A stretch of DNA of 64,000 bases, taken from Planctomycetota bacterium (GTDB lineage: Bacteria; Planctomycetota; Phycisphaerae; Phycisphaerales; Phycisphaeraceae). The stretch is taken from assembly GCA_016350165.1 (NCBI GenBank), contig CP066225.1, positions 806,001 through 870,000 on the forward strand. The letters run 5' to 3'. Below the pieces are notes generated by a model that searched no databases, was not told the DNA's origin, and saw nothing but the letters and a program-made list of their open reading frames with translations. A program made the translations under genes and the position numbers. Numbering within the stretch: position 1 is the first letter of the stretch; every line of letters begins with the position of its first letter. Shown in pieces: positions 6,994 to 12,041 of the stretch.

Positions 6994-7770
6994 CTATCTC
7001 GCCGGTCGTCGGCCGCCAAAAACTGCAAATTCGAAATACTTGGCGTAACAATCCACATCAGCATAACCGATATTCCGCAACCAGTCGCATTGCTTCTCTA
7101 CCGATACACAGATATCCTCGTCATGTACTTCTCCCTCACGTTCACTGCACAATTCTAAAATCTGCTGCCGTGTACAAGCGGGATCTACTTTTTGAGCATA
7201 CTCGTACAAACTATCAACAAAAACATCATCACTGATCTGATTTAGCCAATCTGTAGGCGATGAAACATGCTCAATATTCAAGAACATACCACCCGGTTTG
7301 AGAACTCTAAAAATTGCCTCATACAAGCTTTTCTTTTTATCATCCTGCAAATGATGAATAGCGTATCGTGTAATCACAAGATCTTCCGATGCATCATCGA
7401 TTCCACATGTTGTTGCCCAATCAACCTTACATAAATCAGCAGCAATAATGTTGATTCGATGCCTATACCCTTCAAGCCGTGCTTTGGCCTTCTCCAACAT
7501 TTGCTCTGAAAAATCAATAAATATCCCATGAGAATTCGGATATTGATCGAGAATACGCTGCCCTATAACACCATCACCACATGCGATATCAACAAACCTT
7601 TCGACCGGTTTATTGTTTGCACGCAACAGTCGTCCGACTGCATTGAACTGCATATCACGGCAAGGAAGTCCATGCTGCATCATCTTTAAATACAAACTAA
7701 TCATTCGTTGATCTAGCCAACTAGCATCCGACGTTCGTGATGCACTCGAATTACTTTTAGATTGCACCAT
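6994..7770 (-). CDS. Class I SAM-dependent methyltransferase, substrate unknown
   Basis: The 258-residue protein has a Rossmann-type methyltransferase core with motif I FVDIACGDG (59-67), an acidic post-I loop (GIFIDFSEQM) and a later TRYAIHHL segment, as in UbiE/BioC-like enzymes. The C-terminal third is helical, and the protein ends in GGRRPAR. It sits between the rRNA methyltransferase and two related methyltransferases with short spacers (27 and 26 bp), suggesting an operon. It is less similar to the other two than they are to each other: it lacks their shared RPLLWQ...VDVLHKH tail. I do not know the substrate. Confidence 0.75.
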   Translation of the reverse strand: MVQSKSNSSASRTSDASWLDQRMISLYLKMMQHGLPCRDMQFNAVGRLLRANNKPVERFVDIACGDGVIGQRILDQYPNSHGIFIDFSEQMLEKAKARLEGYRHRINIIAADLCKVDWATTCGIDDASEDLVITRYAIHHLQDDKKKSLYEAIFRVLKPGGMFLNIEHVSSPTDWLNQISDDVFVDSLYEYAQKVDPACTRQQILELCSEREGEVHDEDICVSVEKQCDWLRNIGYADVDCYAKYFEFAVFGGRRPAR

Positions 7771-7796
7771 ATCATTCTCTTTTCAAAATATAACAT

Positions 7797-8582
7797 CTAT
7801 TTAATCGCATAAAATGCCGCGTAAATCTGATGCTTATGCAAAACATCAACTTCTCTGAACCCCACTTTTTGCAATTGTTCTATCTGCCACAGTAGTGGTC
7901 GTGGTGTGTCCTCGACTTTTATGTGCTCAAAGCAAAAATCCCGATAAGCTTCATCAACAACATCACACAAATAGTCACTATAACGTTCGCGCATATCAAC
8001 ATTCACTTGTTCATTTACAATGTCAATCAAATCATAAATAAACAAACTGCCACCAGGCTTTAAAGCTGCGTGCAAATTCAAAAATACATCAAGCCATTCC
8101 CGTTCATCTCGCAAGTGATGTAATACCATTGAACAAAGAATCACATCGTAGGTTTCTAAGGGCAAAACTGCATCTCGTATATCTGCACAATGCACAGTCA
8201 TTTTACCAGTGGTTTTAAGACGAATCAGTGCTTCCGCATTCTTCAACATATCATCAGATAAATCAATGAGCGTAAGATCAACATCAACCTTTTCTTTCGG
8301 GCGTAATCCTCTTGCAAATCGTAATTGATCAAGTAACACCGATGAAGCAATACCTCCACCACAGCCAAGATCAAGCACACGATCCATCTGTTCATGCTGC
8401 CGAACAGCATTCGACGCAATCATTTCCAAACATAATTTGCCATCCATTAAAGCTGGCATAATCTGATTTGGATCGCTAAACATATCTGTATTTTCAGAGA
8501 AGAAACGCCGGATCTCATCTGGCGAAGAGACCTCATCTGACTTGATATTTCTCTCTGCTGTTTGGTCATCGCGTTGTATCAT
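7797..8582 (-). CDS. Class I SAM-dependent methyltransferase (paralog A)
   Basis: The 261-residue protein has motif I VLDLGCGGG (69-77), an acidic LTLIDLSDDML strand, CSMVLHHL and KPGGSLFIYDL. Its C-terminal segment RPLLWQIEQLQKVGF followed by VDVLHKH is shared almost residue for residue with the next gene upstream (8681-9409), so the two are a tandem duplication. The start ATG has GGAG seven bases upstream. The conserved His-rich tail suggests a common substrate, but I cannot name it. Confidence 0.75.
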   Translation of the reverse strand: MIQRDDQTAERNIKSDEVSSPDEIRRFFSENTDMFSDPNQIMPALMDGKLCLEMIASNAVRQHEQMDRVLDLGCGGGIASSVLLDQLRFARGLRPKEKVDVDLTLIDLSDDMLKNAEALIRLKTTGKMTVHCADIRDAVLPLETYDVILCSMVLHHLRDEREWLDVFLNLHAALKPGGSLFIYDLIDIVNEQVNVDMRERYSDYLCDVVDEAYRDFCFEHIKVEDTPRPLLWQIEQLQKVGFREVDVLHKHQIYAAFYAIK

Positions 8583-8680
8583 GGCTGGTCTCCGTCTAGC
8601 TACCTAAACGATAGGCCAACCCAAATCAATAATCATGCAATGAGCACACTTTATTATGATGATAGATTCACAGTTTTTGC

Positions 8681-9409
8681 TTATTTAAACGCACAAAATG
8701 CACTGCATGTGCTGTGTTTATGAAGGACATCTACCGAGGAAAATCCTGCAGACAACAAACGTTCTAGCTGCCACATTAATGGACGAGGCGAATCTTCTTT
8801 TGCGATGTAATCAAATACCGTATCACGATATGACTCGCCCTTAAAGCTCACCAAATAATCGCTATATTGCAGCCATGCATGGTCATGCAGCACTGTCTTT
8901 TCATGCTCAACAAGATCGTAAATCCATAATGCACCCCCCGGTTTCAATGACTGGTATACGCTTGCAAAAACATCATCCCACTGTTCATCTTCACGTAAAT
9001 GATGAAACACCATAGCGGCCACAATGGCATCATAAGAATCATTAGCCAGTTCAATATCACGTATATCATCCTGCAACACTGTGATCTGACCAGATGTATT
9101 TTTACGAACCCGTTGACGTGCACGTTCAAGCATATTGGCACTTAAATCATTCAACGTCACATCAACATTATTTTGTTTCAATTTGCCCAGAATACGCAGA
9201 GTAAAATTCCCTGCACCACATCCAATATCCAAAACACTCTTCATTTCAGGTGCATGTTGAATCGCACAATTCGCAATCATTTCCAAGCAATCAGCCGCAT
9301 CTACGGCAGCGCTCTGCCCAGTTTCATGATTAGAAAATCGTTCAACATCGTTTTCAAAACGATCACGTATTTCATTAACTGTCGATTTATTCTCGTATCC
9401 TTGTCGCAT
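8681..9409 (-). CDS. Class I SAM-dependent methyltransferase (paralog B)
   Basis: The 242-residue protein parallels its downstream neighbour. It has CLEMIANCAI before motif I VLDIGCGAG (59-67), VTLNDLSANML, AAMVFHHL, KPGGALWIYDLVEH, and a C-terminus RPLMWQLERLLSAGF then VDVLHKH. The ATG start follows GGGGAATAAAA. It is the first gene of the apparent methyltransferase operon; a 98-bp gap separates it from paralog A, and the leuA terminator lies upstream of it. Function beyond methyl transfer is unknown. Confidence 0.75.
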   Translation of the reverse strand: MRQGYENKSTVNEIRDRFENDVERFSNHETGQSAAVDAADCLEMIANCAIQHAPEMKSVLDIGCGAGNFTLRILGKLKQNNVDVTLNDLSANMLERARQRVRKNTSGQITVLQDDIRDIELANDSYDAIVAAMVFHHLREDEQWDDVFASVYQSLKPGGALWIYDLVEHEKTVLHDHAWLQYSDYLVSFKGESYRDTVFDYIAKEDSPRPLMWQLERLLSAGFSSVDVLHKHSTCSAFCAFK

Positions 9410-9496: not shown

Positions 9497-11083
9497 TTAT
9501 GGCTGCTCTGCCAATACTGGCTCAGTTGTCGTCTTAATGCGGTTAATCGCACTAAGGTATGCCTGCACAGCAGCCTCAATAACGTCAGTCGAAAATGCAC
9601 GGCCGCGCACCTTGCGATCGTTATGACGAATCTGCACAGCAACTTCACCCTGTGCATCTTTACCGCCTGTAATCGCGCGTGTTTGATACTGTTCTAACTT
9701 CACGCCAACACCAGTGATGCGTTGAATTGCTTCATAACACGCATCAATCGGGCCGTCACCAGTTGCAGCATCCATTTTTTCAGCGCCAGATGAATCACGC
9801 AACACAACTGTCGCTGTACTGATCACACCTGTACCACTAGTGATCTGGAAGCGAACGAGTTCCCAGAGCTGTCGCTCATTTTCCAACTGCTTATCAAGAA
9901 TCGCTTCGATGTCTTCGTCATAAACATCTTTCTTTTTGTCAGCCAATTCTTTGAACGCATCATAAACCTTCACAAGCATCGCATCGTCAACGGTATACCC
10001 CAGTTCTTCAATACGATCTTTCAACGCATGACGACCAGAGTGTTTACCTAACACAAGCTTAGACTCAGGCACGCCAATGTCTGTAGGATTCATAATCTCA
10101 TAAGTATTGCGATTCTTAAGCATGCCGTCCTGGTGAATGCCAGATTCATGCGCAAAAGCATTCTCACCTACAATCGCTTTGTTTCGCTGCACCTGTAAAC
10201 CAGTCAAGTTCGAAACCATACGTGAGAGTGGATACAACTTCGAAATATTAATACCTGTCCTGAATTCTTTATAGATATCAGCACGTGTATTCAACGCCAT
10301 GATAATTTCTTCTAACGCAGCGTTGCCCGCTCGTTCACCAATACCATTGATCGTACACTCAATTTGTCGAGCGCCGCCTTGAATCGCAGCAATCGAGTTT
10401 GCCACTGCAAAACCAAGGTCATTGTGACAATGTGAAGAAAGAATAATTCCCTTCTCATCAATGATCGGCAACTGCTCACGAACATACGAAAAAATATGTC
10501 CATACTCTGCAGGCATCGCATAGCCAACAGTATCAGGAATATTAATCGTCGTCGCACCCGCTTCAATCACCGCACCGGTAATATCAACCAAGTGATTCAA
10601 CTCTGTACGTGAACCATCCTCAGGCGAAAACTCGACATCATGCGTATACTCACGTGCATGAGCAACAGATTTCTTCGCCAATTCAACGATCTCATCAAAA
10701 GCTTTATTCAGCTTATGCTCGCGGTGAATCTTGGATGTCGCACAGAACACGTGAATACGTGATTTTTTACCATCTTTTATCGCTTCACCCGCACGATCAA
10801 TATCGCGAGGCACGCAACGTGACAAACCAGCAACGATCGAATTTTCAATCTCCTGACTAATTGCACGTACCGCATCAAAATCGCCTTGCGAAGTAATCGG
10901 GAAACCCGCTTCAATAACGTCCACACCAAGAGCTTCTAGCTGCCTAGCAATCTCCAGCTTCTCTGAATGATTGAGAGAAGCGCCCGGTGATTGTTCGCCA
11001 TCACGTAGTGTGGTGTCGAAAATCCGGATGTAGTTAGCATCGTTTGTGTCAGCATCGCCAGATTTTGAATTGGTCGTAGACAT
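9497..11083 (-). CDS. leuA: 2-isopropylmalate synthase
   Basis: LeuA condenses acetyl-CoA with 2-oxoisovalerate, the committed step of leucine synthesis. The catalytic TIM barrel begins with the DRE-TIM signature IFDTTLRDGEQSPG (residues 21-34), and HCHNDLG carries metal-binding histidines. The last 130 or so residues match the LeuA dimer/allosteric domain through which leucine inhibits the enzyme. I place the start at ATG 11083 because AGGAG stands 8 bases before it; the longer frame from ATG 11125 would add 14 residues but has no good ribosome site. The product is then 528 residues. The gene is preceded on its own strand by a leucine-rich leader peptide and an attenuator, so it is probably controlled by leucyl-tRNA supply as well as by feedback. 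Confidence 0.95.
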   Translation of the reverse strand: MSTTNSKSGDADTNDANYIRIFDTTLRDGEQSPGASLNHSEKLEIARQLEALGVDVIEAGFPITSQGDFDAVRAISQEIENSIVAGLSRCVPRDIDRAGEAIKDGKKSRIHVFCATSKIHREHKLNKAFDEIVELAKKSVAHAREYTHDVEFSPEDGSRTELNHLVDITGAVIEAGATTINIPDTVGYAMPAEYGHIFSYVREQLPIIDEKGIILSSHCHNDLGFAVANSIAAIQGGARQIECTINGIGERAGNAALEEIIMALNTRADIYKEFRTGINISKLYPLSRMVSNLTGLQVQRNKAIVGENAFAHESGIHQDGMLKNRNTYEIMNPTDIGVPESKLVLGKHSGRHALKDRIEELGYTVDDAMLVKVYDAFKELADKKKDVYDEDIEAILDKQLENERQLWELVRFQITSGTGVISTATVVLRDSSGAEKMDAATGDGPIDACYEAIQRITGVGVKLEQYQTRAITGGKDAQGEVAVQIRHNDRKVRGRAFSTDVIEAAVQAYLSAINRIKTTTEPVLAEQP

Positions 11084-11157
11084 TCGTCTAACTCCTGATT
11101 TGTCGAACGAAACCGTTTCGTTCATTGCCTATCAATTCATGATAGAACTTGGGATAT

Positions 11158-11229
11158 AAAAAAACCCTGTCGGTAACTGCCGGACAGGGTATTGGAAGCT
11201 TATTTGGGAAGCGTCCCTATCCGACAGTT
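11158..11229 (-). promoter_or_regulatory. Transcription attenuator of leuA (terminator/antiterminator switch)
   Basis: Terminator: arms 11180-11189 and 11165-11173 (CCCTGT ... ACAGGG plus an inner CGG/CCG) are followed by seven T at 11158-11164. Antiterminator: AACTGTCGGATAGGG at 11215-11229 can form 15 continuous pairs, two of them G-U, with CCCTGTCCGGCAGTT at 11175-11189, which contains the 5' arm of the terminator. The upstream antiterminator arm overlaps the stop codon of the leader peptide. A ribosome that finishes the leader would mask it and let the terminator form; one stalled at leucine codons would leave it free. The structure was read directly; the regulatory logic is inferred from known leu/his/trp attenuators. 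Confidence 0.8.
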
Positions 11230-11309
11230 TTGCGCAAAATAAGTAGGCCTAGGTCGAGACCGAGGTCTAGCTGTAAGCTGCTAAGTCGAATGGAACGTTC
11301 GTTGTTCAT
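11217..11309 (-). CDS. leuL: Leucine-rich leader peptide of leuA
   Basis: This is a 30-codon frame from ATG 11309 to TAG 11217. Nine of the 17 residues 9-25 are leucine, encoded by CTT, TTA, CTA, CTC and TTG, alternating with Asp, Gly, Ser and Gln. The C-terminus is RKTVG. It has no Shine-Dalgarno at the proper distance. The candidate promoter places the transcript start only about 0-3 bases before the ATG, so it may be translated as a leaderless message. Its last codons and its stop lie inside the antiterminator arm. The arrangement is that of an attenuation leader; the peptide itself is probably dispensable. Confidence 0.8.
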   Translation of the reverse strand: MNNERSIRLSSLQLDLGLDLGLLILRKTVG

Positions 11310-11317
11310 GGTTAGTA

Positions 11318-11346
11318 AGGATAATCACCCCGTCCAGTCATGTCAA
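11318..11346 (-). promoter_or_regulatory. Sigma-70-type promoter of the leu leader
   Basis: TTGACA (11341-11346) and TATCCT (11318-11323) are separated by exactly 17 bases on the minus strand. The predicted start is about 11310-11312, next to the leader ATG. Just upstream, at 11373-11390, a perfect inverted repeat (TTCGCAA, four-base spacer, TTGCGAA) follows the stop of the XRE-cupin gene; it may be a weak terminator or an operator. Confidence 0.7.
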
Positions 11347-11399: not shown

Positions 11400-12041
11400 T
11401 TACGCTCGGTATGTCACCACCAAAAATGCATACAACTGCGTTTTCCCAGAGTTCTCGATCATGTGTGGCACGTCTGCCCTGTAATGAGCCGAGTCTCCCT
11501 TCTTCAGCACACTATTATCATCACCAGAATGAATCGTGCCCTGCCCCTTCAACACAGTCAGAAACTCCGTCGTCCCCTCAAAGTGCGATGCCGACCTCAT
11601 CTGCGTGCCCGGCTCCAATCGCAACTCATAAAACTCAACATCCTTCTCTTTATTCAAAGGCGACAACGTCCTCACCTGCATCGTCTCGTCACTCTTATAA
11701 ATAAACGCGGGGTCTTCACCTCGTATCACCTCAATCTGTGAATCCGACATCGCCGCATCCACCAGATGCCCCAACTGCAACCCAAAAGCTTGTGCAATCC
11801 GATAAGCCACACCCAATGTCGGATTCGCCTGCCCACGCTCTATCTGCGACAACATCGACCGCGACACACCCGACGCATCCGCCAACTGCTGCAACGTCCA
11901 CCGCTGCTTTTTACGCAACTCCCTCACCTTTTCACACACAGCCTTTGTGACCGGATCAGACCCGTCATGCCGATCATGATTGGTGTCGGCTGGGCTCTCG
12001 ACGTACGTATTATCCTGTTTATTCTTAGGGATATTCGTCAA
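11400..12041 (-). CDS. XRE-family regulator with cupin domain
   Basis: The 213-residue protein has an XRE helix-turn-helix at residues 37-92 (LQQLADASGVSRSMLSQIERG is its core) and a C-terminal cupin barrel at about 137-211, with G-T-x-E-F and DVPHMIEN elements. HTH-cupin regulators sense small metabolites through the barrel. It is divergent from tdh-kbl, so control of threonine degradation is the simplest inference. The only possible start after an in-frame stop is TTG 12041; its ribosome site is poor. The first 30 residues are hydrophilic and low in complexity. The gene lies upstream of the leu leader on the same strand, and read-through could also reach leuA. Confidence 0.85.
   Translation of the reverse strand: MTNIPKNKQDNTYVESPADTNHDRHDGSDPVTKAVCEKVRELRKKQRWTLQQLADASGVSRSMLSQIERGQANPTLGVAYRIAQAFGLQLGHLVDAAMSDSQIEVIRGEDPAFIYKSDETMQVRTLSPLNKEKDVEFYELRLEPGTQMRSASHFEGTTEFLTVLKGQGTIHSGDDNSVLKKGDSAHYRADVPHMIENSGKTQLYAFLVVTYRA

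Follow-up and report, generated by a model that had tools for sequence, protein, structure and literature searches.

A probable ribosome-mediated leucine attenuator with a predicted leaderless leader peptide before leuA in Planctomycetota

On the minus strand of the window (i.e., the whole stretch of 64,000 nucleotides analyzed here), an attenuator region lies between a gene for an XRE/cupin-type regulator (11400-12041) and leuA (start 11083). Its elements follow one another in the order promoter, ATG, Leu-rich frame, TAG in a G-rich arm, complementary arm, terminator hairpin and seven T (Table 1). The promoter, the 30-codon leader with nine leucines, the 15-pair antiterminator and the terminator with seven T, all reported in a first-pass annotation made from the letters alone, were found where it had placed them. 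The nine leucines fall within leader residues 9-25, and three of the nine Leu codons are CTA, a codon that accounts for 6% of Leu codons across 12 of the window's ORFs. The downstream gene represents 2-isopropylmalate synthase, as it scored over the cut-off for both TIGR00973 and NF002086 (both NCBIfam equivalogs); it probably starts at 11083, behind AGGAG, rather than at the in-frame ATG at 11125. The stretch from the terminator to the leuA Shine-Dalgarno (SD) sequence contains two inverted repeats, at 11145-11129 (CTATCA..TGATAG) and 11123-11105 (GAACGAAAC-G-GTTTCGTTC) of the minus strand; a sister species seems to carry palindromes of other sequence at the same place. Downstream of leuA, three methyltransferase-like ORFs lie in tandem on the minus strand (6994-9409); in a profile search with one of these (8681-9409), the hits shown were to methyltransferase families, all of them below cut-off.

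Table 1. Positions of the elements of the leuA leader region and of related leaders
Feature	Position	Strand	Remarks
-35 hexamer TTGACA	11341..11346	-	read in sequence; TTGACN kept in relatives
-10 hexamer TATCCT	11318..11323	-	17-nt spacer to -35; 8 nt to leader ATG (11309)
Leader peptide ORF, 30 codons, MNNERSIRLSSLQLDLGLDLGLLILRKTVG	11217..11309	-	stop TAG 11219-11217
Arm 1, protector	11285..11300	-	pairs with 11225-11208
Arm 2, contains leader stop codon	11208..11229	-	partner is arm 1 or arm 3
Arm 3, CCCTGTCCGGCAGTT	11175..11189	-	partner is arm 2 (antiterminator) or arm 4
Arm 4, CCGACAGGGT, 3' side of terminator	11164..11173	-	pairs with arm 3
Intrinsic terminator	11190-11164	-	hairpin, then seven-T run
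Seven-T run of intrinsic terminator	11158..11164	-	read in sequence
leuA, 2-isopropylmalate synthase	9497..11083	-	ATG 11083 behind AGGAG (11096-11092)
cimA Ile leader MTTANASIIAIAIIITYPM	L257 / G000:C1:5003984-5005609 upstream		conserved in family, 24 leaders compared
ilvB leaderless-type leader MRNALRLLSIAIFGGLALLVADSVLVI	L290 / G000:C1:3553248 upstream		Val run at end in relatives

In the antiterminator, 11229-11215 pairs with 11189-11175 (15 pairs, one of them U-G), the second arm lying 25 nt further on. The leuA leader RNA folds at -44.1 kcal/mol, as compared to -32.7 ± 3.3 kcal/mol for shuffled sequences (z = -3.45; 0 of 200 shuffles), and the minimum free energy structure includes the protector pairing of 11300-11285 with 11225-11208. 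A search of Rfam, including the leader and T-box families, yielded no covariance model match at the gathering score; two weak hits, below that score, appeared at a low threshold.

The search for homologs upstream of leuA that the first-pass annotation had proposed was carried out across the order, where LeuA of the same type occurs in 54 of 301 genomes. Nearly all genomes of two families (f1 and f6) with available upstream sequence have a short Leu-rich frame before leuA, and nearly every one likewise has the promoter and the terminator; overall, the same device precedes 48 leuA genes in these two families, with covarying pairings as detailed below. As 48 leuA genes of the order carry it, the device is, judged by sequence comparison, far beyond chance. 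The leaders of these relatives average 6.7 Leu per 25 residues and often end in LLGLLLL..AG/RG-stop. TAG serves as the stop codon in 40 of 48 leaders, and nearly all leaders have the stop codon at the same place within arm 2, as would be expected if U-A-G belongs to the helix. The stop codon of the sister species is shifted 8 nt upstream with respect to arm 2, which counts against the explanation favored below.

We assessed the pairings by comparing the energy of each genome's own arms with that of arms swapped between genomes (48 genomes, 2000 swaps). Own arms paired better than swapped ones for the antiterminator (-22.2 v -18.0 kcal; Z = -9.6), the terminator (-20.9 v -16.7 kcal; Z = -11.2) and the protector, i.e., leader codons 1-11 with the arm that holds the stop codon (-19.8 v -15.8 kcal; Z = -9.1), with 0 of 2000 swaps as good for any of the three, while Z for six control segment pairs ranged from -1.9 to +0.5. 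Among 42 distinct anchored sequences, 85% of antiterminator cells were paired and 94% of terminator cells, percentages that are favored by the choice of anchors for likeness to the consensus; compensatory counts are not so favored. Both-side changes occurred at five of eleven antiterminator pairs (27 cells, as compared to 8.1 in shuffled data; 0 of 500), and compensatory changes were likewise seen in the terminator. Sliding the alignment reduced antiterminator pairing to 31-47%. Late leader codons were also tried as a partner for arm 2 and were rejected, as they paired worse than swapped arms (Z = +2.3; 48 genomes).

The call of a leucine attenuator is thus borne out by order-wide conservation and covariation. 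The first-pass annotation had further suggested that the switch seems to need only two alternative structures, antiterminator and terminator, with the ribosome as the sole mask, and this part did not survive. These are indeed the most strongly conserved pairings, and trpL of Sinorhizobium meliloti has been described with two mutually exclusive structures; however, pairing of the early leader with its own arm 2 is far stronger than with swapped arms (controls near 0), and the minimum free energy fold contains this pairing, so that we consider a two-structure switch improbable. The protector hairpin, in which leader codons ~4-9 pair with the antiterminator arm, approximately matches the antiterminator in strength of conservation. 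On these sequence comparisons, the leuA switch is one of three pairings (1:2, 2:3 and 3:4), and conservation of the protector points to a classical ribosome-mediated attenuator, here with a leader peptide predicted to be leaderless.

The leaderless start was predicted from the position of the promoter. When promoters were chosen blind to the reading frame, the -10 hexamer ended 6-12 nt upstream of the Leu frame in approx. 45 of 50 cases; this is a less biased count than those for the 48 leaders, which were partly picked by promoter proximity and among which 46 had a promoter scoring at least 8/12 that ended 6-12 nt upstream (as compared to 7 of 410 other ATGs) and 43 had one scoring at least 9/12 (0 of 410 other ATGs). 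SD-like motifs preceded 6 of 48 leaders, against a background of 9% and 35 of 48 leuA genes. As a near promoter is found in 46 of 48 leaders and there is no SD excess, the leaderless start of the leuA leader, also put forward by the first-pass annotation, is well supported as a prediction and likely.

Alternatively, the same attenuator could be transcribed from a start further upstream and have a 5' UTR without SD. Some support for this comes from the wider class, where near promoters accompany the Leu leaders of families f11, f17 and, in part, f9, but the Leu leaders of families f7, f10, f14 and f15 look SD-led or are without a near promoter. The near-consensus promoters that end 6-12 nt upstream in 46 of the 48 leaders, the failure of all 410 other ATGs to reach 9/12, and SD-like motifs at background level argue against it, and we regard a longer 5' UTR as quite unlikely. 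Elsewhere in the class, family f23 has one doubtful Leu leader, and no convincing Leu leader was found in families f13, f18, f20, f22 and f24. Leu leaders followed by a terminator were also observed in other classes (e.g., f51 and f92), mostly with no consensus promoter at that distance. Genome-wide, the promoter-to-ATG pattern showed no enrichment (9 matches, as compared to 13 in a reversed control), and the leaderless-type arrangement thus is not common across the genome. A few such arrangements are conserved within the genus (L197/L210, L200/L209 and L202/L211, before lipoprotein-like, folC-like and phosphatase-like genes, respectively), which suggests leaderless mRNAs for these genes.

Overall, the region very probably is a classical ribosome-mediated leucine attenuator with its leader peptide on a leaderless or nearly leaderless mRNA. 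The parts of the switch, their order, their conservation and their covariation were established by computation; from these we infer the transcript start, the ribosome positions and the response to leucine. The transcript would begin 0-3 nt upstream of the leader AUG. When Leu-tRNA is ample, the ribosome would reach the stop codon in arm 2 and cover this arm, allowing the 3:4 terminator to form. With scarce Leu-tRNA, it would stall at the Leu codons between arms 1 and 2 and separate the two; with arm 1 blocked by the stalled ribosome, arm 2 would pair with arm 3 and leuA would be transcribed. Without a ribosome, arms 1 and 2 would pair and the terminator would form.

Folding of the 48 leaders, with only the RNA beyond the ribosome allowed to fold, gave the antiterminator in 48 of 48 when the ribosome was placed at the first Leu codon, or at the middle one, and arm 4 was not yet made. 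With the ribosome at the stop codon, the antiterminator formed in 0 of 48 and the terminator in 48 of 48; the proposal of the first-pass annotation that a ribosome at the stop codon would hide the antiterminator arm fits this folding in all 48 leaders. Free RNA folded into the terminator in 39 of 48. At equilibrium with arm 4 made, the antiterminator was kept in 28 of 48 leaders (first Leu codon) and 24 of 48 (middle Leu codon), and when pairing around the stalled ribosome was allowed, the protector often re-formed. The switch would thus have to rely on kinetics and steric blocking. Known attenuators are understood to work kinetically.

The same device, in an isoleucine version, precedes cimA (citramalate synthase), a paralog of leuA (TIGR00977, 638 bits; cut-off 450). 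In the family to which the window belongs, cimA has a leaderless-type promoter, an Ile leader, a terminator and, within the antiterminator arm, a TAG; the leaders comprise 16-24 residues, of which 4-6 are isoleucine and few or none leucine. Own arms again paired better than swapped arms among 24 leaders (antiterminator, Z = -4.6; terminator, Z = -5.4; protector, Z = -4.1; 0 of 2000 for all), as compared to Z = -0.8 and +2.3 for control segment pairs. The Ile device of cimA may thus serve as a specificity control for the Leu attenuator of leuA, and these paralogous enzymes, with the same switch and either Leu or Ile codons, would represent a natural test of codon specificity.

The leuL leader of Salmonella and E. 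coli has a 5' UTR and an SD sequence. The leuA leader resembles it in its Leu-rich leader before leuA, in the 1:2, 2:3, 3:4 logic and in a terminator before the structural gene, and differs in that it is apparently leaderless and has its stop codon inside arm 2. In S. meliloti, trpL (rnTrpL) encodes a leaderless leader peptide at the transcript 5' end and acts by transcription attenuation (PMC7298713, where Salmonella leu attenuation is cited). The likeness lies in the leaderless leader peptide (predicted here), attenuation and mutually exclusive structures; trpL differs in sensing Trp before trpE(G), in its two structures and in a peptide and RNA that act in trans (PMC7298713). Leaderless attenuation has also been described for leuL, trpL and ilvL of Streptomyces lividans (PMC8079986); leuL1 (before leuA; leuL2 lies before leuS) has the kind of leaderless Leu leader peptide predicted here, but is without a typical intrinsic terminator, and the leuL1 and leuL2 leaders have 12-15 aa (PMC8079986). 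The actinobacterial LEU element likewise has a run of Leu codons upstream of leuA, but forms a pseudoknot in which the Leu codons pair with the leuA SD, with no terminator (PMC1262725); its intrinsic terminator sets the present leuA leader apart from such an element. That the leader is protein-bound or riboswitch-like in this manner, its Leu codons not sensing charged tRNA, is extremely unlikely: mutational tests, including codon mutations, of the Streptomyces coelicolor leuA leader did not fit classical attenuation (PMC1262725), but here an intrinsic terminator is combined with a covarying antiterminator, codon identity follows the gene product (Leu for leuA, Ile for cimA) and no Rfam family matched.

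Leaderless attenuation is therefore already known, and what is new is an example from the Planctomycetota, a phylum for which we found no report in the open-access literature; a search of that literature for amino-acid attenuators of planctomycetes or Phycisphaera found no paper. According to a 2010 survey, Proteobacteria and Actinobacteria were the only groups with demonstrated leader-peptide systems until it added cases of its own from the Firmicutes (PMC2965389); later Firmicutes systems exist. The present data bring well-supported amino-acid leader-peptide attenuators to the Planctomycetota, and the leuA switch suggests regulatory use of leaderless translation in this phylum.

A valine-rich leader of the leaderless type also precedes ilvB in the window's family. 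Its stop codon lies in a very conserved GTTAGC-TGA-GCGGAAGACCCGC, within a hairpin GTCGTTGTTAGC-TGA-GCGGAAGACCCGC; most ilvB leaders of relatives have no intrinsic terminator, and the leader matched no Rfam family. We tentatively propose, with slightly less than even confidence, that the Phycisphaeraceae regulate the synthesis of branched-chain amino acids through a set of leaderless leader peptides, each for one amino acid (Leu/leuA, Ile/cimA and Val/ilvB), that the leuA and cimA switches are paralogs in which codon identity changed with the enzyme, and that ribosome loading at the 5' end is part of the switch, as the first codons of what would be a leaderless message contain arm 1. A search for a leader before hisG found none. 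Before trpE, a short Trp-rich frame, M(KYM)TTAYWQVYWRRWQS, with no clear promoter or terminator, was observed (L288, positions 1238-1294).
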